A DNA stretch of 40,225 nt from a virus: the IMG/VR virus record IMGVR_UViG_3300032273_000004, positions 1 to 40,225 of that record. One strand, given 5' to 3'. The translations under genes were made by a program, and so were the position numbers. Below the pieces are notes generated by a model. It worked only from the letters and a program-made list of their open reading frames with translations. It did not search any database and was not told where the DNA came from. This document shows, in pieces, positions 3,508 to 32,968 of this stretch. Position 1 is the stretch's first letter, and every line of letters starts with the position of its first letter.

Positions 3508-3853
3508 CGATGATGATCCCCTCTAAAACGATGGGTTCGCCGTTATCCAAAAGCACCCCATACAAATCCAAGGTGACTTGGCCGTCTAGGCTAGATACGA
3601 CTTTCATGTCGGTTAAACGAAGATCATCTAACCCGTTTTTAGGGTTAGCGATACACTCGGCCACGCGGACATAACATTCCATTTCAAAATTTAGGTCGAT
3701 ATTCATATCAACCAACTCATGCAGCCGCGATCCATATTGACGCTCAACCACTAACGAGCCTTGTTCTGTTTCCAAAGCGTCGGTGATGCGCTGGCGCAAG
3801 TAATCGAGGCCGCCGATAACTTTGCCAGTTTGGCGATCGGTGCCTTGCTTCAT
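3491..3853 (-). CDS. Baseplate wedge protein, gp25/P2 gpW-like
   Basis: A 120-aa protein. The segment QRITDALETEQGSLVVERQYG...LHELVD is the core motif of the gp25-like lysozyme-related family that forms baseplate wedges. Its ATG at 3853 directly abuts an array of three 8-bp repeats (3854-3877). Sits between the small 3874-4071 gene and J. Confidence 0.9.
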   Translation of the reverse strand: MKQGTDRQTGKVIGGLDYLRQRITDALETEQGSLVVERQYGSRLHELVDMNIDLNFEMECYVRVAECIANPKNGLDDLRLTDMKVVSSLDGQVTLDLYGVLLDNGEPIVLEGIIIDVSRD

Positions 3854-3877
3854 TTCGTTAATTCTTTAATTCGTTAA
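3854..3877. repeat. Octamer array 1: three tandem TTCGTTAA/TTCTTTAA repeats
   Basis: Three contiguous octamers on the plus strand: TTCGTTAA, TTCTTTAA, TTCGTTAA. They fill the gap between the gpW start and the upstream small gene, whose stop codon lies inside the array. Same family as arrays at 18613, 25456, 25524, 26191, 30028, 30707 and 37878. Candidate site for the ribbon-helix-helix partition protein (inference). Confidence 0.75.
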
Positions 3878-4071
3878 ACGATTGGATGCTGGCCCGCACT
3901 GCTGCCAGATTGAATGTTTGCTTTACCGTTTGTGGTAATTTCATCGACCACCGCTTCGGCGATGGCTTTAGCCATAGGACGAACCCAGGAATGATCACCG
4001 GATTCATTCGCACCGGCACTGACCATATTGGCCACGATGCGATCTTCGAGGCTTTGCTTATCTAAGGCCAT
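3874..4071 (-). CDS. Small tail-region protein between V and W
   Basis: A 65-aa protein (MALDKQSLEDRIVANMVSAG...) found in the baseplate operon between the spike gene V and gene W. Its start shares one base with the stop of the upstream gene V (4071), so translation is coupled. It ends inside octamer array 1. Similar small open reading frames occur at this place in P2-like tail modules of marine gammaproteobacterial phages; function unknown. Confidence 0.7.
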   Translation of the reverse strand: MALDKQSLEDRIVANMVSAGANESGDHSWVRPMAKAIAEAVVDEITTNGKANIQSGSSAGQHPIV

Positions 4072-17279: not shown

Positions 17280-18521
17280 TCACGCCGCGCAGACTCTTGG
17301 TTCATCTTGTTTGAATGATCTTGTCGATCTCGCCTCTGTCTCGTCGCGTAATGCCTGGAACCCTCGTTCATCTAACCACGCGTGATAACGGGCTAAGGCG
17401 TCGCGCATTGGACCCATGAATAACGATTGGTTATAGGCTTTGTCTTGTTTGCTCTGGGCATGGTTTAACAGGCGTTCACTGACGGAATTGTCTATCCCTA
17501 AATCGGTGCAAATGGTCTTTAAGGCTTTGCGGCAATCGTGGGCGCTCCACTCTTTATCACTGACGGTCTGAATGTGCTTTCTTGATGTGCTGTAACTTAA
17601 GGATCGAGCGTGACCGTGACCAGGGAACAGGAACACCCCGCGATAACCGGTTTCGATTTGCCAGGTGCGATAATCCTGTAACCATTGCGCTACTGGGTCC
17701 GTGATGGGTAGAACGTGCCAATCCCCTGTTTTGGTGTCCGCCATTGGTAAACGCCATTGACGGCCCACCATGTCGATGTGGCTCCACTTCGCGGCTAAGG
17801 TTTCGGTGATACGGGTGCCATGACACAGCAGCATGACAACCAAGCATTGCGTGACCGGATCACTTCCTAAGAGGGCTTTAAACAGTGGTTCGATGGCCGT
17901 GGCCAACAATCGCCCGTCTTTGGGTTCAATCGATACGGAAATGAAATCCGAAAACACCACGCCCGCTAATGGGTTGGACTCGATGCGCCCTAACTTATCG
18001 GCTTGGTTAAATGCTTGTTTTAATACGGATAACACCGACTTAACGGTCGCTAATGAATGGCTTTCTTGCAGTGGCCAGATCAAAGCGTCGTCCAATACTT
18101 GACGGTTAAGCGCTTCGATGGCCAAGTCGCCCAGGTGGGGCAATAGGTGGCACTTGATGGCGCTTTTGATGGTGGCCTTGCGGGTTTTCGAACGGTGGGC
18201 GTCTTTCTCGATGCGGCCTTGATACCAGTTCAGCACATCGCTTACGCTCTCGAACTCGGTGTGTAATAGATTGCTTTTGGTGTTAATGGCCAACATGGCC
18301 AGCTTTTCGGGTAAGACTTTCTTCACCGCTTTAACGGTTAACACGGGCCAGTAACCGAGCAGATACCAGCGATCACGACGCACCACATACCAAGAGCCCG
18401 TTTCACGATTTTGATGGAAGCGAAAGCGCAGCGGGAACGCCGGATCGCGCAAGGTTCGCACGGTGCCGGTGATTTCGCTTTTGATGTTCGTTTCTGAAAA
18501 AGTAATGACTTTGGTTTTCAT
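17280..18521 (-). CDS. int: Tyrosine recombinase / phage integrase
   Basis: 413 aa from the ATG at 18521, with GGGG 4-7 nt upstream; a TTG at 18551 would add 10 residues. N-terminal arm-binding-like part (RFRFHQNRETGSWYVVRRDR), core-binding SAM-like domain about 85-190 (SDVLNWYQGRIEKDAHRSKT), catalytic domain 200-390 with R in LLCHGTRITETLAAKW, K in MADTKTGDW, H-x2-R in SAHDCRKALKT, H in ERLLNHAQS and the Tyr in DKAYNQS. All catalytic residues are present. It is of the P4-like type. It is not a protelomerase: size and motif layout fit an integrase. Might integrate the phage or resolve plasmid multimers. Confidence 0.9.
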   Translation of the reverse strand: MKTKVITFSETNIKSEITGTVRTLRDPAFPLRFRFHQNRETGSWYVVRRDRWYLLGYWPVLTVKAVKKVLPEKLAMLAINTKSNLLHTEFESVSDVLNWYQGRIEKDAHRSKTRKATIKSAIKCHLLPHLGDLAIEALNRQVLDDALIWPLQESHSLATVKSVLSVLKQAFNQADKLGRIESNPLAGVVFSDFISVSIEPKDGRLLATAIEPLFKALLGSDPVTQCLVVMLLCHGTRITETLAAKWSHIDMVGRQWRLPMADTKTGDWHVLPITDPVAQWLQDYRTWQIETGYRGVFLFPGHGHARSLSYSTSRKHIQTVSDKEWSAHDCRKALKTICTDLGIDNSVSERLLNHAQSKQDKAYNQSLFMGPMRDALARYHAWLDERGFQALRDETEARSTRSFKQDEPRVCAA

Positions 18522-18612
18522 GGTGCCCCGGTTAAGACGCCAACCACTCAAACAACCAGTACACGGTGGGGAAGCTGACGCCTAATAAAATGAACTCTTG
18601 GATTTTTATCAC

Positions 18613-18644
18613 TTCATTAATTCTTTAAATCTTTATTTCTTTAA
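18613..18644. repeat. Octamer array 2: four tandem repeats
   Basis: TTCATTAA, TTCTTTAA, ATCTTTAT, TTCTTTAA in phase on the plus strand. It lies between the integrase start and the stop of the 53-aa gene 18641-18802. Confidence 0.7.
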
Positions 18645-21491: not shown

Positions 21492-21837
21492 CGGAATATT
21501 GACCGCCCCAGGGATGGGGCTTAATTCCGACGAACTGGCCATCTTGGAAGGTCACGCCAACGGGAAACGCCCGAAAGAAATTTGTAACGAGCTCGATCTC
21601 ACCCCACCGGAACTAAGCCTTGCGGAACAAGACATCCGGTACAAGCTCGATGCGAAAACCACACCGCACATGATCAGCCGAGGCTTTCAACTCGGTTTAT
21701 TACGCGTGATGTGTTTAGTGCTCTGTTTCTGCAGCGTCATGGACCTTGACGATCAAGCTGTACGAACTCGAGTAAGGACAAGAACTCAACAAAGCCGAAC
21801 CGTCCGAACTGGACGAAAAGACACGGACCTATGCTAA
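21484..21837 (+). CDS. LuxR-type HTH protein with C-terminal hydrophobic segment
   Basis: 117 aa from the ATG at 21484 (MTNGILTAPGMGLNSDELA). Residues about 13-75 have the LuxR/GerE shape: LNSDELAILEGHANGKRPKEICNELDLTP, DIRYKLDAKTTPHMISRGFQLG. The next LLRVMCLVLCFCSVM is a membrane-like stretch with three Cys, followed by a basic Arg/Thr tail. There is no PAS or autoinducer domain. Similar short proteins are common in marine phages of gammaproteobacteria; target unknown. It resembles but is not VqmA of phage VP882, which is longer and has a PAS domain. Confidence 0.65.
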   Translation: MTNGILTAPGMGLNSDELAILEGHANGKRPKEICNELDLTPPELSLAEQDIRYKLDAKTTPHMISRGFQLGLLRVMCLVLCFCSVMDLDDQAVRTRVRTRTQQSRTVRTGRKDTDLC

Positions 21838-22073
21838 TGAAAAATAAACTAACAGATCTCAATAACCACTTATTCGCTCAACTCGAACGCTTATCCGATG
21901 AAAGCTTAAAAGGCGATGCTCTAAAAGAAGAAATTAACCGTTCAAAAGCCGTTTCCGGCGTATCTAAAGATATTGTCGCCAACGCTAGGTTGGCTTTAGA
22001 CGCTCAAATCGCGGTTGGTACTTCCATTCGTGAAGGCGATCTTCCTCAAATGATAGAAGGTCCAAAAGCATGA
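21837..22073 (+). CDS. Conserved small phage protein
   Basis: 78 aa from the ATG overlapping the previous stop (TAATG). MKNKLTDLNNHLFAQLERLSDESLKGDALKEEINRSKAVSGVSKDIVANARLALDAQIAVG is a helical protein type widespread in gammaproteobacterial phages and prophages, usually near replication or regulatory genes. Function not established. Overlaps the next start by 4 nt. Confidence 0.7.
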   Translation: MKNKLTDLNNHLFAQLERLSDESLKGDALKEEINRSKAVSGVSKDIVANARLALDAQIAVGTSIREGDLPQMIEGPKA

Positions 22074-22852
22074 GTCGTTTTATCGTGACCCACGACATGA
22101 AGTCATTCTTAAAGGCAGAATACCCAAAGCTGGACATCGAGGCGTTAACAGTGGCGTTTAATCATCGCTTTCATACAGAAAAAACACCTCAGCAAGTTAA
22201 AGCTATGGTTAAAAACCACCGCATTCGATGTGGACGAAAACAAGGTGAACTCACCAAAGGCAAATATTTCAGCTATACGCCAGAACAAGCCGACTTTATC
22301 AAAGTTGGTTATAAAAAATGGGCATTAGCTGAACTCACCATCCGATTCAATCAGCATTTCGATACCGATAAGACAGAAAACCAAATTCGAAGTTTTACCC
22401 GCAATCACGGTATTAAATCAGGGCGAACCGGTTATTTTACCAAAGGTCAAAAGCCGCATAACGCCGGAACTAAAGGCGTTATGAAGCCTAATAGCGGCAG
22501 CTTTAAAAAAGGGGCGAAACCCCACAATCACAAGCCCGTTGGGTCCGAGCGTACTAACGTCGAAGGCTACATCGAGATAAAGACTGCAGAACCAAATATC
22601 TGGGAACTTAAACAGCGCGTCGTTTACGAACAACATCACGGCGCGATCCCAACTGGCCACAATGTCCGCTTTCGTAACGGTGATCGCCAGGACTGCAGCC
22701 CAGACAATTTATTCCTAGTCGATAACCATGAAAACGCCCTATTGAATCAACGCTACAAACTGAATCACCAACCTTTAGAGCTTCGCGACACCCTCGTTTT
22801 GATGGCTCGTATTGATGTAAAAACGCAACGCTTGACGGAGAAAAACGCATGA
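22070..22852 (+). CDS. HNH endonuclease with duplicated HTH-like modules
   Basis: 260 aa. Residues about 20-60 and 75-115 are two copies of one module (FNHRFHTEKTPQQVKAMVKNH and FNQHFDTDKTENQIRSFTRNH, each ending in R/K-x-G-R), probably DNA-binding. A Gly/Lys/His linker (KGQKPHNAGTKGVMKPNSG) leads to an HNH_3-type domain, about 175-225: ELKQRVVYEQHHGAIPTGHNVRFRN, DRQDCSPDNLFLVDN, with the catalytic His in the HH pair. It may be a free-standing homing endonuclease or a phage DNA-processing nuclease. Overlaps neighbours by 4 nt, so it is an operon member. Confidence 0.8.
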   Translation: MSRFIVTHDMKSFLKAEYPKLDIEALTVAFNHRFHTEKTPQQVKAMVKNHRIRCGRKQGELTKGKYFSYTPEQADFIKVGYKKWALAELTIRFNQHFDTDKTENQIRSFTRNHGIKSGRTGYFTKGQKPHNAGTKGVMKPNSGSFKKGAKPHNHKPVGSERTNVEGYIEIKTAEPNIWELKQRVVYEQHHGAIPTGHNVRFRNGDRQDCSPDNLFLVDNHENALLNQRYKLNHQPLELRDTLVLMARIDVKTQRLTEKNA

Positions 22853-25433: not shown

Positions 25434-25460
25434 AAGCGAGATTCTTATCTCGCTTTTCTT
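25434..25460 (+). terminator. Terminator at the end of the early operon
   Basis: Plus strand AAGCGAGA-TTCTTA-TCTCGCTT then TTCTTTATTT. The 8-bp stem plus T-tract closes the 21.2-25.4 kb operon. The T-tract is also the first unit of octamer array 3. Confidence 0.8.
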
Positions 25461-25487
25461 TATTTCTTTAATTATTTAATTCATTAC
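25456..25487. repeat. Octamer array 3, upstream of the par promoter
   Basis: Four octamers in phase on the plus strand: TTCTTTAT, TTCTTTAA, TTATTTAA, TTCATTAC. It ends 3 nt before the -35 of the parA promoter, the usual place of a centromere-like site for type Ib partition systems (family knowledge). Confidence 0.75.
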
Positions 25488-25523: not shown

Positions 25524-25555
25524 TTCAAGAATTAACGATTTCTTTAATTAATGAA
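25524..25555. repeat. Octamer array 4, between par promoter and parA
   Basis: Octamers in phase, with alternating orientation: TTCAAGAA, TTAACGAT, TTCTTTAA, TTAATGAA. The last two lie just before the parA SD (GAAAGGA). Arrays 3, 4 and 5 flank the par promoter and genes. Confidence 0.6.
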
Positions 25556-25568
25556 AGGACGCCAACCA

Positions 25569-26210
25569 ATGGGAAAAAAAATAGGTGTAGTTTCGCAAAA
25601 AGGCGGCGTGGGTAAATCCACGGTTGCGCGCGCCCTAGCGACCGCTTATGCAAAATTCGAATGGGATGTGAAAATCGCAGATTTAGACATCAACCAATCA
25701 ACCAGCTATATGTGGCAAAAACGCCGTCTAGCCTCTGAAATTAATCCGGTTGTTTCAGTCGAATGTTTTGGCAACGTTGGCCAAGCACTCAAGCAAGCTG
25801 ACAACTACGATATGTATATCTTCGACGGCGCCCCACACGCCACCAAAGCAACATTAGAGATCGCCCACGCTTCGGACATGGTCATCATTCCTACGGGCCT
25901 CGCCCTCGATGATATGGAGCCTTGCGTCATTCTAGCGAACGACTTAGTCAAACAAGGGATCGATAGAAACAAGATTGTCTTTGTATTCTGCCGAACCGGT
26001 GACAGCAAAGCCGAGTTGCAAGATTCATTCGATTATATGGCCCAAACACCCTACAAGGCGATCGAGGCTCCATTACAAGAAAGAACCGCTCTAAGACGTG
26101 CCAGCGATAAAGGCCAAGCCGCTATCGAATGCCAATACAAAGGCCCACGCGAACAAGCTGAAAGCTTGGTTCAAGCCTTAATTGACAACCTTAACGAATT
26201 AACGAAATAA
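25569..26210 (+). CDS. parA: ParA-type partition ATPase (type Ib, small)
   Basis: 213 aa from the ATG at 25569 (MGKKIGVVSQKGGVGKST), preferred to 25551 because AAAGGA lies 9 nt upstream. Deviant Walker A SQKGGVGKST at residues about 9-18, switch-like IADLDINQSTSYMWQ at 38-52, and Walker B IFDGAPHATKATLE. It has no N-terminal HTH, so it belongs to the short ParA (ParF/type Ib) group that works with a small RHH partner. ParA moves plasmid copies apart over the nucleoid. Array 5 lies over its last codons, just ahead of the RHH gene. Confidence 0.9.
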   Translation: MGKKIGVVSQKGGVGKSTVARALATAYAKFEWDVKIADLDINQSTSYMWQKRRLASEINPVVSVECFGNVGQALKQADNYDMYIFDGAPHATKATLEIAHASDMVIIPTGLALDDMEPCVILANDLVKQGIDRNKIVFVFCRTGDSKAELQDSFDYMAQTPYKAIEAPLQERTALRRASDKGQAAIECQYKGPREQAESLVQALIDNLNELTK

Positions 26211-27007: not shown

Positions 27008-27039
27008 AAAAAGGCCGCTATGATAGCGGCCTTTCTTTT
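27008..27039. terminator. Bidirectional terminator between convergent genes
   Basis: GGCCGCTA-TGA-TAGCGGCC flanked by AAAAA on the left and TTTCTTTT on the right. It serves the plus-strand gene ending at 27006 and the minus-strand lipoprotein gene ending at 27038. Confidence 0.8.
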
Positions 27040-27385
27040 ATGACTTGTTAGCGCCCCAGCCCATTGTCTGAACGCAAGAAGCGACCAAGTGGTTCGTTTC
27101 TGCTTTCGACACGCTGATCGAGCTATCCAGGCAATCAACCAGCATTTGGGCGTTCTGCTTAAACTCTGGGCCTTCAACCAAAGCCCCATCAATTAACCAC
27201 CCATCTTTATTTAGGTTTCTAAGCCAAAAACCTGCAGTTCCTAACTTTCGCCCTGGTTGCGCTTCGCTCCATTGTTGACGATCGAGCCCTACCGAACTCC
27301 CATCATAAAGCCAATCACTATCCGGGTCACTACATCCAGACACAGCCCCGACCAATACCAGGGCGGCGATCATTCTTTTTATCAT
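27038..27385 (-). CDS. Small lipoprotein
   Basis: 115 aa. A signal peptide MIKRMIAALVLVGAVSGCSD ends with a lipobox whose Cys is about residue 18. The mature part has DSDWLYDGSSVGLDRQQWS and four further Cys. It could act in superinfection exclusion or lysogenic conversion; the sequence does not show which. It is the last gene of a leftward unit with the two small paralogues 27403-27896. Confidence 0.7.
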   Translation of the reverse strand: MIKRMIAALVLVGAVSGCSDPDSDWLYDGSSVGLDRQQWSEAQPGRKLGTAGFWLRNLNKDGWLIDGALVEGPEFKQNAQMLVDCLDSSISVSKAETNHLVASCVQTMGWGANKS

Positions 27386-27402: not shown

Positions 27403-27576
27403 TTAAGCTACTTCTAGTAACTCTTTAATTTCAACCATTAACCCTTTATTCAACAAGTTCGCCGCGCGAATCTCGTCGATGACATTATCATCGTTCTTAG
27501 TTAGGTTGTCCGCTACTGCCAAAATATTTAAAACCTGATCACACTTAGCCAAAACGGCCGCTTTGTTATTGCTCAT
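27403..27576 (-). CDS. Small protein, paralogue 1 of a tandem pair
   Basis: 57 aa from the ATG at 27576 (MSNNKAAVLAKCDQVLNILA), GGG 8-6 nt upstream; the longer frame to 27603 has no SD. By eye it shares about 25 residues with its neighbour 27720-27896: KC(D/E)Q(V/I)L-x-IL-x-V, (D)DN(V/I)-x-DE, AANLL-x-KGL, LxE. All-helical, amphipathic. A TATAAT -10 lies at 27623-27618 upstream. Confidence 0.7.
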   Translation of the reverse strand: MSNNKAAVLAKCDQVLNILAVADNLTKNDDNVIDEIRAANLLNKGLMVEIKELLEVA

Positions 27577-27610
27577 ATCAAACCCTTTAGTGGTAACAAT
27601 CATTTGTTAT

Positions 27611-27680
27611 GACCATTATATCCAGATTCCCAAACGCGCAAGTGATCACAGGTGTAGATCAGAAACCCCCGATAATGGTC
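27611..27680. promoter_or_regulatory. Region between the paralogues: TATAAT and inverted repeat
   Basis: Inverted repeats GACCATTAT (27611-27619) and ATAATGGTC (27672-27680) bracket the region. Minus strand TATAAT at 27623-27618 with a poor -35 (TTGCGC, spacing 15), as expected for an activated promoter. Candidate own promoter for paralogue 1. Confidence 0.4.
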
Positions 27681-27719
27681 CCTGATCCAAACTATAAAGA
27701 CCAAACTATCAGTCTTTTC

Positions 27720-27896
27720 CTAGTCCATTTCGACTAGATTATCCACCTCCAAAACTAAGCCTTTTATCAGTAAATTAGCGGCTAATACCTCATCGCAAAT
27801 GTTGTCACCTGATTTCGCTAAATCATTCTCAACTTGCAAAATCGCTAATATTTGCTCACATTTTGAATGAATAGAATTTTTATTGCCTTTAGCCAT
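27720..27896 (-). CDS. Small protein, paralogue 2 of a tandem pair
   Basis: 58 aa, ATG at 27896, GGAG 8 nt upstream. MAKGNKNSIHSKCEQILAIL...GDNICDEVLAANLLIKGLVLE is a helical protein. It is the first gene leftward from the XRE regulator. Candidate promoter TTGCCC (27949-27944), 17 nt, ACAATA (27926-27921), with the 24-bp palindrome centred about 90 nt upstream of the start. Function unknown; placement next to a TF recalls the TF plus small-protein lysis modules of marine phage-plasmids (family knowledge). Confidence 0.7.
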   Translation of the reverse strand: MAKGNKNSIHSKCEQILAILQVENDLAKSGDNICDEVLAANLLIKGLVLEVDNLVEMD

Positions 27897-27992
27897 TGTT
27901 ACTACTCCAACTAACGTATTTATTGTATTTATATGATTTTTAAGGGCAATTTAACCGCATAAGAAACAGCGTCAATAGGCTAGGACAAAATG

Positions 27993-28029
27993 GTCACTTT
28001 CTTGCAAGAAAGTGACAAAACTGTCACTT
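27993..28029. promoter_or_regulatory. 24-bp perfect palindrome (27993-28016) plus third half-site
   Basis: Half-site GTCACTTTCTTG and its exact inverted copy form a perfect 24-bp palindrome. A third half-site GTCACTT follows at 28023-28029. It lies between the divergent paralogue 2 and XRE genes, 25 nt before the XRE start. Probably the operator of that regulator, used for autoregulation and for activation of the small genes. Confidence 0.8.
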
Positions 28030-28041
28030 ATGAGGTGAACT

Positions 28042-28386
28042 ATGTCACATGAGCCTATAATCGAAGCGCTGAAAGTGCGTCGAGAAATGGCTGGGTTATC
28101 GCAACAAGAGATCGCAGACCTGGCCGGAATGAGTAAACGAACGTACCAAAGAATCGAACAAGGCGATTCAGACATGAAATTTAGTCAATATCGGGCAATT
28201 ATTCGCGTTTTGAAAACAACCGACCTTGATATTTCATTAGATATGATGGGGCTAGACAAAATAACAAGTTGGGATGTTGCCACAGCAACGCGGGTTTTAT
28301 CGCCAATCTTAAGGCGACACTTTGTCACTTTGCTGATCGAGCTGTATCGAGAATTCGAAGAATTGAAAGATAGGAAGACAAAATAG
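28042..28386 (+). CDS. XRE-family transcription regulator
   Basis: 114 aa, AGGTGA 4-5 nt before the ATG. Residues about 8-62 are a classic HTH: LKVRREMAGLSQQEIADLAGMSKRTYQRIEQGDSDMKFSQY. The C-terminal half (ILRRHFVTLLIELYREFEEL) is helical and may dimerise. It is transcribed away from the two paralogous small genes. Likely controls the palindrome at 27993-28016. Confidence 0.8.
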   Translation: MSHEPIIEALKVRREMAGLSQQEIADLAGMSKRTYQRIEQGDSDMKFSQYRAIIRVLKTTDLDISLDMMGLDKITSWDVATATRVLSPILRRHFVTLLIELYREFEELKDRKTK

Positions 28387-29617: not shown

Positions 29618-29940
29618 TAAAATAAACGAGTATTTAAGCCGGTCATTTCGGTAAAGGTGCGCTGCAGCATATCGGCATAGATACCCTGTTCGTTGGCCAG
29701 TTCGTTACATTCAAACTTACGAGGCATATATTTAAGGCCGCGGACCGTGTAAGTGTCAGATGGGTTTAAGATGATTTGAATTTTATTGATGCCATCTTTT
29801 ACATAGTGACGAGTGCGAGGAAGGTCAAACTGTAGGCCACTTTCAATAGCAACCACGTTTTTCGCGCCGGTCATAGCCACAAAGCGACCGCCGCCAAGCT
29901 GTTCAAGAATGGTTTTTGCAATGATTTGATTGTTAGTCAT
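29617..29940 (-). CDS. Conserved plasmid-type small protein (leader copy A)
   Basis: 107 aa from the ATG at 29940 (MTNNQIIAKTILEQLGGGRF); the longer frame is only a reading of the leader. VAMTGAKNVV...LPRTRHYVKDGINKIQIILNPSDTYTVRGLKY is a pattern I recall from small conserved proteins of proteobacterial plasmids and phages, function unknown. Preceded by leader copy A (29945-30018). The long frame includes the leader and would start at 30018, which is not credible. Confidence 0.7.
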   Translation of the reverse strand: MTNNQIIAKTILEQLGGGRFVAMTGAKNVVAIESGLQFDLPRTRHYVKDGINKIQIILNPSDTYTVRGLKYMPRKFECNELANEQGIYADMLQRTFTEMTGLNTRLF

Positions 29941-29944
29941 CGTG

Positions 29945-30018
29945 TTATCTCGGTTTTGGCCTTGGCACCTTGCCCGGCCTTCGAGATAAATAATAGGACT
30001 TTTCGTCCTACCTTGCAA
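29945..30018 (-). promoter_or_regulatory. Promoter plus leader, copy A
   Basis: Minus strand: TTGCAA (30018-30013), 17 nt holding AGGACGAAAAGTCCT (30009-29995), TATTAT (29995-29990), then a leader of about 45 nt: TTATCTCG ... CGAGATAA, with an inner GGCC/GGCC and GGCA/TGCC pairing. The CGAGATAA arm also holds the only SD-like bases (GAGA) 5-11 nt before the ATG, so the stem can hide it. Nearly identical to copies B and C. Confidence 0.75.
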
Positions 30019-30027
30019 GTATTTTCT

Positions 30028-30059
30028 TTCTTTAATTATTTATTTATTTATTTCTTTAT
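30028..30059. repeat. Octamer array 6, next to leader copy A promoter
   Basis: TTCTTTAA, TTATTTAT, TTATTTAT, TTCTTTAT, in phase on the plus strand, 10 nt upstream of the copy A -35. It overlaps the end codons of the 30040-30348 gene. Confidence 0.6.
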
Positions 30060-30348
30060 TCCAAATAGGCCCAAATCCGGCGCGCTCTGCCAGAATAGCC
30101 CACGCCGCGAAAGGGATTCGCTGCATGTTCGTTTTACGCCCTTCGGCTTTTGCTTTCTCGACCTCTACAGGATCAAAAGCGCACCATTTACGAACGCTTC
30201 TACCATCTGAAACCCCAACCAATGCCGCGGCCTGACTTCCCGTTAAACCGCATAGTCTTAAGATTTCGCGAACTTCTTCGCCTGTCGGTTGCGCCCAATC
30301 TAAACCAAAAGGGATTAGTGTTTCTGGGCGAATAATAGCATTTGTCAT
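30040..30348 (-). CDS. Small HTH-like plasmid protein
   Basis: 102 aa. QPTGEEVREILRLCGLTGSQAAALVGVSDGRSVRKWCAFDP is a helix-turn-helix-like pattern, followed by IPFAAWAILAERAGFG. Similar small proteins occur on gammaproteobacterial plasmids. Function unknown, DNA binding likely. Runs from 30348 to a stop inside array 6; shares the copy B transcript with the 76-aa gene 41 nt upstream. Confidence 0.65.
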   Translation of the reverse strand: MTNAIIRPETLIPFGLDWAQPTGEEVREILRLCGLTGSQAAALVGVSDGRSVRKWCAFDPVEVEKAKAEGRKTNMQRIPFAAWAILAERAGFGPIWNKEINK

Positions 30349-30388: not shown

Positions 30389-30619
30389 TTAGTTGGCCAA
30401 CAAGGCGCTTACGCCTCGCCAGCTTTTATATTGTTTTTCGACGGCTTCAAGGCTGGCGAACTGTTTAATCCCCAGACCACGATAAGCGCGACGACTGGCA
30501 TTATCAGTAAACATTTCCCAATATTCACCCAAAGCATCCTCTTTGTGGCTAAGAGTCATCTTATTACCACGCGTTTCTAAATAGAATGTTTTGCTGTCTA
30601 ACTGAATGATTGCTTTCAT
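30389..30619 (-). CDS. Conserved plasmid-type small protein (leader copy B)
   Basis: 76 aa, ATG at 30619. MKAIIQLDSKTFYLETRGNKMTLSHKEDALG...WEMFTDNASRRAYRGLGIKQFASLEAVEKQYKSW has the look of small conserved plasmid proteins of unknown function. Preceded by leader copy B. Confidence 0.65.
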   Translation of the reverse strand: MKAIIQLDSKTFYLETRGNKMTLSHKEDALGEYWEMFTDNASRRAYRGLGIKQFASLEAVEKQYKSWRGVSALLAN

Positions 30620-30623
30620 CGAT

Positions 30624-30697
30624 TTATCTCGGTTTTGGCCTTGGCACCCTGCCCGGCCTTTGAGATAAATAATAGGACTTTTCGTCCTAAATTACAA
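30624..30697 (-). promoter_or_regulatory. Promoter plus leader, copy B
   Basis: Minus strand TTGTAA (30697-30692), 17 nt with AGGACGAAAAGTCCT (30688-30674), TATTAT, then the conserved leader. One base of the outer stem differs (TTATCTCA/CGAGATAA), weakening one pair. Otherwise the same as copies A and C. Confidence 0.75.
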
Positions 30698-30706
30698 GCG
30701 ATTACT

Positions 30707-30738
30707 TTCTTTAATTCTTTATTTCGTTAATTAAAGCC
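30707..30738. repeat. Octamer array 7, next to leader copy B promoter
   Basis: TTCTTTAA, TTCTTTAT, TTCGTTAA, TTAAAGCC (last one degenerate), in phase on the plus strand, starting 10 nt upstream of the copy B -35. Overlaps a weak hairpin GCCGA/TCGGC (30736-30750) that may end the 30828-31166 gene. Confidence 0.65.
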
Positions 30739-30827: not shown

Positions 30828-31166
30828 CTAATGGCTCTTGAGGCGATTAATGGACTCAGCCAAGCCGTAACACTCTAAAGCCTCGTTAAGCGCTTCCTGA
30901 TTGAAATAAGCCGTAAAATGGTCGCAAAAATGATAAGGACCACTAACGTTAAACTCATCATCACGATAAAAGCACGTAGCATCGTGATAATTGTTTTCAT
31001 CTTTAAGCCATGCGATCACTTCTTCTGCAGTGACCAGGTGGTAGGCGCTCTCGTAGCTATCATCAATTTGCATTGATGATACGCGGCCAATAATGCCAAC
31101 GGCACTATTTAAAATAGATTGGATCTTCTTGGTAGCATTTTTACGAATCGTTTTGTAATCAGTCAT
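30828..31166 (-). CDS. Plasmid-type small protein (leader copy C)
   Basis: 112 aa from the ATG at 31166 (MTDYKTIRKNATKKIQSILN); the longer frame is only a reading of the leader. YHLVTAEEVIAWLKDENNYHDATCFYRDDEFN is an alpha/beta pattern, function unknown. Preceded by leader copy C. The region 30751-30827 after its stop has no convincing gene. Confidence 0.65.
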   Translation of the reverse strand: MTDYKTIRKNATKKIQSILNSAVGIIGRVSSMQIDDSYESAYHLVTAEEVIAWLKDENNYHDATCFYRDDEFNVSGPYHFCDHFTAYFNQEALNEALECYGLAESINRLKSH

Positions 31167-31170
31167 CGAA

Positions 31171-31244
31171 TTATCTCGGTTTTGGCCTTGGCACCTTGCC
31201 CGGCCTTCGAGATAAATAATAGGACTTTTCGTCCTAGCTTGCAA
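31171..31244 (-). promoter_or_regulatory. Promoter plus leader, copy C
   Basis: Minus strand TTGCAA (31244-31239), 17 nt with AGGACGAAAAGTCCT (31235-31221), TATTAT, then the conserved leader TTATCTCG...CGAGATAA before the ATG at 31166. No octamer array upstream, unlike copies A and B. Confidence 0.75.
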
Positions 31245-31289
31245 CTGTTTTTTTTGCGCCCAGAAGCGCACCCACAGAACCTACTTTCA

Positions 31290-31932: not shown

Positions 31933-32820
31933 CTAATAGGGTATGTCGGCGCAGTCGTCTACTGGGCCGGGGTCAGACTCTAACTCGCGAGACTTATACA
32001 GCGCCTTGATCTCTGCATGGCTAAAGCCCTGGTTCAAAAGGTTTAGCGTCTCTTCTGTCCGGTTCTGGGACTGCAACGAAGCTAACATTTCAGTTATTGG
32101 CTTCGTCACACGTTCGAATTTAGCATGGCTGCGTTGCTTGTTGCGTTTATCTCTGACCTTATCATCTACTTTACGGTAACTATCTAACTGCTCTTGCTCT
32201 GGCGTTTTCTCAAGCTGTTTGATTTGCTTTCTTTGTTTAGCCTTGGCGCGTTGCACTGTCACAAACTGACCAAGACCCAGCATTTCAAAGATCACCATAT
32301 TTAAACGTTTGATTGATGCTACACCACGATAAACAGGGCCGACATCACTGTCCTTTTCTTCTCTTTGTTCAAAAGAAAGGTAAAGGCCCGCGCGTTTTAA
32401 GCTGTAGATGCAATTATCAACAGTTCTTGATGGCATGTTAAGGCGATCAGCAAACAAGCTATTTTCACAGCGTTCTAACTTATGAGTGACTCGATCACGA
32501 ACACCAACGAGGTTTGATGCTAAGTCATAATGAAGGATAGCCGTCGCTAAAACCTTCATGGTATTAGCGTAATGATCAGCCCTATCGCAAATTCGAGTTT
32601 TTAGCTTACTGCGATTTTGGATACTTTGAAGGACCTCAGTCGCCGCTTGCAACAACACATAAGGAAGTCGTTCGCTAACGTCATAACCAAGGCTAGATGA
32701 TAGGTATTTCGCATTTTCTTCGGCGTTTTTCTTCGCCCATGCGGTTTTTTCTTGTTGCGAGTAGTCTCTAAACTCGTCAGCTAGGACTTTAGCCCTAGTT
32801 ACAGATACATTTTCTTTCAT
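31933..32820 (-). CDS. rep: Plasmid replication initiator protein, RepA (IncFII/IncI-like)
   Basis: 295 aa from the ATG at 32820 (MKENVSVTRAKVLADEFRDY); a TTG at 32856 is also in frame. The middle has a winged-helix part (LFADRLNMPSRTVDNCIYSLKRAGLYL) and VASIKRLNMVIFEMLGLGQF, the pattern of antisense-controlled theta initiators. The C-terminal third is basic and charged (KAKQRKQIKQLEKTPEQEQL), typical of the family. No SD is obvious, which fits coupled translation. Replication would start at oriR downstream. An alternative family with the same layout cannot be excluded. Confidence 0.75.
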   Translation of the reverse strand: MKENVSVTRAKVLADEFRDYSQQEKTAWAKKNAEENAKYLSSSLGYDVSERLPYVLLQAATEVLQSIQNRSKLKTRICDRADHYANTMKVLATAILHYDLASNLVGVRDRVTHKLERCENSLFADRLNMPSRTVDNCIYSLKRAGLYLSFEQREEKDSDVGPVYRGVASIKRLNMVIFEMLGLGQFVTVQRAKAKQRKQIKQLEKTPEQEQLDSYRKVDDKVRDKRNKQRSHAKFERVTKPITEMLASLQSQNRTEETLNLLNQGFSHAEIKALYKSRELESDPGPVDDCADIPY

Positions 32821-32847
32821 ACTGATGCTTTTTTTACCGTTTAAGGC

Positions 32848-32968
32848 TTGCAGCAATCAGGTACAACAAGTAAACTCTAATTTGTTATGTAGGGTTTTGT
32901 ATTATGCCGCCAAACATTAATACACTTGTTATTGCCCGATTAAAGAACCCCGCTTTTGCGGGGTTTTT
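32848..32968 (+). ncRNA. Candidate antisense RNA of rep (copy-number control)
   Basis: Plus-strand promoter TTGCAG (32848-32853), 17 nt, TAAACT (32871-32876), start near 32884; intrinsic terminator AACCCCGC-TTTT-GCGGGGTT-TTT at 32946-32968, so an RNA of about 85 nt. Inside, TGTATTA/TAATACA (32898-32904/32918-32924) makes a hairpin with loop TGCCGCCAAACAT. The opposite strand (rep mRNA) shows TTGGCG in its loop, the motif known from antisense-controlled IncB/IncI/IncFII-type replicons. The leader may also encode a 10-aa peptide from ATG TTT GGC on the minus strand. Confidence 0.65.
32946..32968 (+). terminator. Terminator of the antisense RNA
   Basis: AACCCCGC-TTTT-GCGGGGTT with TTT after it, then GCTTTTT. 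Plus orientation is stronger than minus, where TTCTTTAAT follows. Confidence 0.85.

Follow-up and report, generated by a model that had tools for sequence, protein, structure and literature searches.

The XRE regulator gene and the two tandem small-protein genes that diverge from it at positions 27403-28386 of virus record IMGVR_UViG_3300032273_000004 (40,225 bases, positions 1 to 40,225, here called the window) probably form a previously unreported branch of the TF63-type TF-smORF lysis modules. The first-pass annotation had suspected a new lysis-switch module, yet the type of system is already known: TF-smORF lysis modules of Vibrio phage-plasmids were described by Silpe 2023, the tested ones act on cI, and TF63-smORF63 is the nearest to ours (PMC10432266). 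What is new here is the small-protein family, its tracking of cI, a set of 12 repressors lacking the LexA-type cleavage machinery, the operator pair, and the natural single-copy states of the module. We consider it likely that this is a TF63-type phage-plasmid lysis-induction module working by the steps proposed below.

The TF-smORF discovery study set aside the class of temperate phages whose repressors cannot be cleaved. In every small-protein phage whose repressor was examined, the cleavage dyad is missing and the small protein co-varies with the repressor. In this way each phage has a concrete antirepressor candidate, and there are pairs whose specificity can be tested, while the operator pair and the natural one- and two-copy variants make the regulator, the operator and the duplication testable.

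Genomic context

The window, a marine Vibrio phage-plasmid, encodes a contractile-tailed temperate phage, with genes for ParA, a tyrosine integrase, a cI-like repressor, and tail, terminase and portal proteins. A partition gene and phage structural genes thus stand together, as is characteristic of phage-plasmids, and the phage of the relative H905 (V. fischeri) was assembled as a separate circular contig. No protelomerase match was found among the larger window genes searched, the tyrosine integrase being present instead. The genes relevant to the module are as follows.

17280-18551, tyrosine integrase, 423 aa
20451..21098, plus strand, cI-like repressor, the predicted target, with an S24 domain lacking the Ser/Lys dyad and the Ala-Gly site
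25551..26210, plus strand, ParA partition ATPase, which shows the module's position to be par-associated
27038..27385, minus strand, lipoprotein-like protein, 115 aa, with a weak signal/lipobox-like N terminus
27403..27576, minus strand, P1, the distal small protein and paralogue of P2, 57 aa
27720..27896, minus strand, P2, the xre-proximal small protein, 58 aa, modeled as a two-helix hairpin
28042..28386, plus strand, xre, TF63-like XRE/controller-protein-like regulator, 114 aa, with HTH_31/HTH_3 matches

With ParA at 25551-26210, xre starting at 28042 and tail genes from about 33 kb, the module lies between the par and late genes; neither structured RNA nor tRNA was found in its region.

The lipoprotein-like gene starts 17 nt past P1 and is probably co-transcribed with it. 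Homologues occur in six related phages, on either side of the module: P1 and the lipoprotein-like gene are kept together in H905 and L019/L020, in HDW18 and pVPGX2 the gene is on the opposite side of xre, and no match to it turned up in the other members of the small-protein family searched. Because of this opposite placement and its being undetected in those members, the lipoprotein lies outside the conserved unit. The short gap and the joint retention would suit a lysogenic-conversion or superinfection-exclusion operon, in which the lipoprotein, P1 and P2 would all serve interaction with the host and the XRE would do no more than control their expression, but the shifting or undetected lipoprotein argues against such an operon, which also leaves the co-variation with cI described below unexplained, and we regard it as very unlikely.

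Besides, AT-rich repeats with an 8-bp period (TTTAATTC/TTTATTTC) occur at window positions 3849-3884, 18608-18643, 25451-25486, 30023-30066 and 30702-30737, one of them just upstream of parA, and are possible centromere or replication iterons. A 117-nt repeat is present three times (29937-30053, 30616-30732 and 31163-31279; 76-87% identical) and adjoins 31933-32856, the gene of a 307-aa protein with a match to a PHROG whose function is unknown. E110 carries an annotated RepA at a similar position, and the PhiPS02 protein at that place shows very weak similarity to the window protein.

A family of small proteins divergent from the XRE gene

Of 53 aligned residues, P1 and P2 have 26 in common (49% identity, E 1e-16), a result that agrees with the earlier description of tandem proteins of 58 and 57 aa having about 25 residues in common and diverging from an XRE gene (P1 and P2 on the minus strand, XRE on the plus strand). 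P1-type genes are under purifying selection, with dN of about 0.2 against dS above 1 for the window compared with H905 and L019; given this selection and the identity between the paralogues, P1 and P2 are real coding genes. The AlphaFold model of P2 is a two-helix hairpin with a pLDDT of 93.

A profile search of phages and plasmids led to an alignment of 18 members of this small-protein family (family A), every one of which adjoins and diverges from an XRE gene of the window type. The first-pass annotation had suggested looking for the family beside XRE genes elsewhere, and it was indeed recovered in further phages and plasmids, always divergent. Its view that the proteins are unlike known ones also holds: P1 and P2 match no Pfam or NCBIfam family above cut-off, comparison with known families and solved structures returned nothing significant, and the fold search returned only generic helical hairpins, none with E <0.001. 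Judged from sequence, the family, absent from the libraries searched and tied to this XRE, is a new element.

Homologues of toxin-antitoxin type, which the annotation had named as evidence against a lysis switch, did not appear, as P1 and P2 match no toxin, defence or restriction family. This bears on the idea of a toxin-antitoxin or restriction-controller remnant, where the XRE would be an antitoxin or C protein and the small proteins toxins or debris. Such a remnant is suggested by the DNA-binding domain of the XRE, which resembles those of HipB and C proteins, but sits badly with the absent family matches, with a gene order that is divergent rather than operonic, and with the strong purifying selection, and we find it extremely improbable.

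Copy number varies among the relatives. The P1 and P2 pair is found in the window and L006 only, P1-type genes occur alone and in single copy in H905, L019 and L020, and P2 is confined to the window, L006 and L007, the last having P2 alone. The duplication noted earlier is therefore real, but limited to the window and one relative. In L007, a deletion of 141 bp between two 9-bp repeats (AACCCTTTA, at 27440 and 27581) has removed P1, although this could be an assembly fault since L007 is a metagenome contig. The deletion and the single copies elsewhere are what one would expect of a transient duplication, with P1 redundant and being lost and the pair without regulatory meaning of its own; against this, apart from the doubt over the L007 contig, stand a P1 protein that is 100% identical between the window and L006, with synonymous nucleotide changes only, and the conserved upstream element that P1 has of its own. 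We consider transience rather unlikely.

Carriers are widespread, including K303-type oyster isolates, Vibrio plasmids of 35-41 kb and V. fischeri H905. In Vibrio phage K303 (L077), a family-A small protein and the XRE lie at 21691-22364, and the K303-type oyster phages have an integrase and ParA; the paper on the oyster phages mentions a TF and smORF for its linear group only (PMC13230959).

At other loci with XRE homologues, the equivalent place is taken by unrelated small ORFs of two families, one marked by 'LLLLHEAADLL' (L014-L016 and L018) and the other by 'AAAAEPGVV' (L022, L025, L092 and K243). The K243 member of the latter has 60 codons plus a stop, or 183 nt, the length given for smORF63. 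Profile comparison detected no similarity among the three smORF families, so that a common origin is unsupported. The Vibrio plasmids L088, L089 and L090 pair the XRE with a further unrelated divergent ORF of 56 aa (MKTEENLELLESAKGL...), a candidate smORF family.

The XRE regulator

Homologues of the XRE were found in 113 phage records, 102 of them from Vibrio, in 21 plasmid or replicon records (15 from Vibrio), in 20 IMG/VR contigs and in about 30 Vibrio species genomes. Its AlphaFold model (pLDDT 90) has ClgR, C.BclI, C.Esp1396I, C.AhdI and 5WOQ among the nearest solved structures, and its PDB matches also include the SinR/SinI complex 1b0n. Silpe et al. reported 1Y7Y, 2B5A, 3G5G and 5WOQ as PDB neighbours of TF63/TF72 (PMC10432266), and the neighbours of our model cover all four.

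The likeness of the window XRE to TF63 (WP_016786069) is drawn from these fold neighbours together with its 37% identity to the TF of K243. The isolate K243 is linear and has parAB, repA and, at the position expected for a protelomerase, a protein of 681 aa; this is the layout of phage 63. The linear phage-plasmid group TG89 of oyster phages carries homologues of the phage-63 TF and smORF (PMC13230959), and K243 would be a member of it. A VqmA-type regulator was ruled out by domain search, as only XRE-type HTH domains are present.

The small proteins co-vary with the repressor

Identities of the small protein were compared with those of cI, XRE and ParA across 13-14 phages by Mantel and partial Mantel analysis. 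The small protein correlates with cI (r 0.60-0.64, p <=0.0012) more strongly than with XRE (r 0.28-0.36) or ParA (r 0.28-0.35). Given ParA and XRE, the correlation with cI persists (partial r 0.57-0.58, p about 0.0005-0.0006), while that with ParA given cI is about 0; XRE and cI are uncorrelated with each other (r 0.03). From these values, the sequence of the small protein follows cI, 6-7 kb away, and not the adjoining XRE. The clearest case is L019, which in comparison with the window is 46% identical in XRE, 72% in P1 and 73% in cI, and E110 combines the ParA of one group with the cI and small protein of another. There are two exceptions: ED287, whose cI is 99% identical to that of K303 but whose small protein is only 42% identical, and L009, with 61% identity to PS02 in the small protein and 33% in cI. 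Taken together, the comparison points to cI (20451), the target suggested by the first-pass annotation, as the partner of the small proteins.

Given cI and ParA, a weaker correlation with XRE is left (0.36-0.44), which is expected from linkage and also from XRE as the target. The latter would make P1 and P2 SinI-like anti-regulators, helical hairpins that switch off the adjoining XRE in local feedback, with lysis decided elsewhere or via the XRE. Besides the residual correlation, the size and hairpin shape of the small proteins are those of SinI, and the XRE model also matches the SinR/SinI complex. However, small-protein similarity tracks the distant cI far better than the adjoining XRE, the XRE has been exchanged independently, as in L019, and the tested TF-smORF modules act on cI (PMC10432266), so that we hold the SinI-like alternative to be unlikely and prefer cI as the partner.

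A repressor predicted not to cleave itself

By cleaving itself, the repressor of such viruses ordinarily makes them responsive to DNA damage. In an alignment with repressors that retain the Ala-Gly site, Ser and Lys (those of ARM81ld, MAR, K243 and V. vulnificus Per2), that of the window shows Ala in place of Ser, Arg in place of Lys, and no cleavage site. In all 12 family-A repressors compared, Lys is replaced by Arg and the aligned site has no Ala-Gly, and in half of them Ser is missing too; they are therefore predicted to be without LexA-type self-cleavage, an alignment-based prediction that leaves room for SOS control via another factor. The study of Silpe et al. was limited to autoproteolytic repressors (PMC10432266). 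The records of L078 and L087 (VPHZ6 and pVPGX2) both show a cI-like gene that seems to be truncated or interrupted by a frameshift.

Putative paired operators and promoters

The intergenic region between P2 and xre and that upstream of P1 contain the following elements.

27615..27648, minus strand, predicted P1 promoter TGATCAC-TTGCGC-N15-TATAAT, its core recurring in relatives
27948..27975, minus strand, predicted P2 promoter TTGACG-N16-TAAATT, from a consensus scan
27981..27998, O1, operator-like dyad TAGGACA-AAAT-GGTCACT, its position and 31-bp partner spacing conserved in relatives
27993-28016, perfect 24-bp palindrome GTCACTTTCTTGCAAGAAAGTGAC, made of the right arm of O1 and the left arm of O2
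28011..28028, O2, operator-like dyad AGTGACA-AAAC-TGTCACT, centered at about -22 from the xre ATG

The perfect 24-bp palindrome pointed out between the divergent genes is there, being the sole spacerless palindrome above 14 bp in the window and never matched in shuffled windows; its center, placed earlier at about 90 nt from the first small-gene start, is in fact 108 nt from the start of P2, and 37 nt from that of xre. As such, the palindrome is retained only in L006 and L007, the two nearest relatives; it forms the inner half of a pair of dyads conserved more widely. Most relatives have TAGGACA-N4-TGTCCTA twice upstream of xre, with centers near -53 and -22 relative to the start codon and 30-32 bp apart. 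Paired-dyad scores of >=18 are seen at 12 of the 25 phage loci and at 18 of the 29 chromosomal ones, compared with 0.7% of shuffles; many loci match better than the window pair (P 0.0085). Scanning generically for dyads, whatever their sequence, yielded little signal, whereas the specific TAGGACA-N4-TGTCCTA pair did give one. On this pattern, the paired operators upstream of xre, conserved in phages and Vibrio chromosomes, are a new element. The palindrome also fits the pattern of a minus-strand terminator, a reading that we rejected because the genes on either side diverge and the operator pair occupies the same position.

With its center at about -52 relative to the xre ATG and at about -49 relative to the predicted start of P2 transcription, O1 abuts the predicted P2 -35 box, while O2 abuts the start of xre. 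By analogy with C proteins, such an arrangement is what one would expect if P2 is activated and xre regulates itself. TTTACA/TATTAT-like boxes are seen by eye in relatives at the place of the predicted P2 promoter. Regarding the claim that each small gene has its own promoter, the consensus scan remained at chance level (4 found against 4.0 expected), but the core of the P1 upstream element, GATCACTTGC, does recur upstream of the P1-type genes of H905, L019 and L020. The same element was considered as a cI operator and rejected, as its core was not found in the cI-cro region.

Comparison with known systems

The layout and location of the window module equal those of the functionally tested tf63-smORF63 of phage 63 from Vibrio cyclitrophicus 1F-97 (PMC10432266); modules of this type sit either between par and late genes, as here, or in the repA-telN stretch. 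In both, an XRE/C-protein-like regulator lies beside the par genes and ahead of the tail genes and diverges from an ORF of about 60 codons (about 50-60 in the defining range, as in the window), the regulators have the same PDB neighbours, and the repressor is the probable target. The window differs in that its small protein is of another family and duplicated; its repressor lacks the cleavage residues, although an autoproteolytic cI was a criterion of the discovery set and not of the mechanism; it has an integrase and no annotated or detected protelomerase; and it has its own operator variant with a perfect palindrome. Most known TF-smORF carriers are linear plasmids with telN/repA; the larger window genes searched include no such protelomerase.

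The logic of VqmA-Qtip in phage VP882, a regulator and a divergent small protein aimed at the repressor, had been proposed for the module and remains the best reading on the basis of architecture, regulator homology and fold, operator conservation and co-variation with cI; the regulator itself, however, is TF63/C-protein-like and not VqmA-like. It consists of the XRE domain only and, being without a VqmA-type sensor domain, has no known ligand, and the window small proteins match no family library. The XRE-LuxR-smORF systems of the Aeromonas phages ARM81ld and Apop likewise have a divergent smORF adjoining xre in the par region, but there is no LuxR gene in the window, BLASTP gave no alignment between the window and ARM81ld XREs, and the ARM81ld cI keeps A-G, Ser and Lys.

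With the C proteins C.AhdI, C.Esp1396I and C.BclI, the XRE shares the fold and the paired dyads upstream of its own gene. Unlike theirs, the module and its neighbouring genes include no restriction or methylase gene or domain, and it has a divergent antirepressor-like gene and extra C-terminal helices in the XRE. SinI/SinR of Bacillus also places a helical-hairpin small protein beside an XRE regulator, with the difference that the window small protein co-varies with cI rather than with XRE.

Proposed mechanism

We propose that the XRE binds, probably as dimers, to the two dyads 30 bp apart, such that occupancy of O1, just upstream of the leftward promoter, would activate P2, while O2, adjoining the xre start, would serve autoregulation as for restriction-modification controller proteins. 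P1 and P2 would be two-helix antirepressors that bind cI (20451) and inactivate it without cleavage, releasing the lytic genes. P1 may be the older copy, with its own promoter and the lipoprotein gene behind it, and P2 the copy under direct XRE control. As its catalytic Ser and Lys and its cleavage site are lost, cI should not self-cleave after DNA damage, which makes the small proteins the likely main route of induction. The activation of P2 by the XRE and the inactivation of cI by P1 and P2 are inferred from sequence and comparison, as are the trigger and the division of labour between the two proteins.

In this sense, we tentatively advance, while thinking it somewhat less probable than its contrary, a cleavage-independent switch with two inputs, in which P2 would be driven by the XRE and its cue, while P1 would answer to another signal at TGATCAC-TTGCGC. 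One small-protein family would then serve an entire group of circular Vibrio phage-plasmids, all with repressors that have lost the cleavage machinery.

In Vibrio chromosomes (L027-L055), the same XRE and paired operators are accompanied by a divergent ORF of some 103-112 aa, which belongs to no known family; these loci may represent a domesticated or cellular version related to the module.
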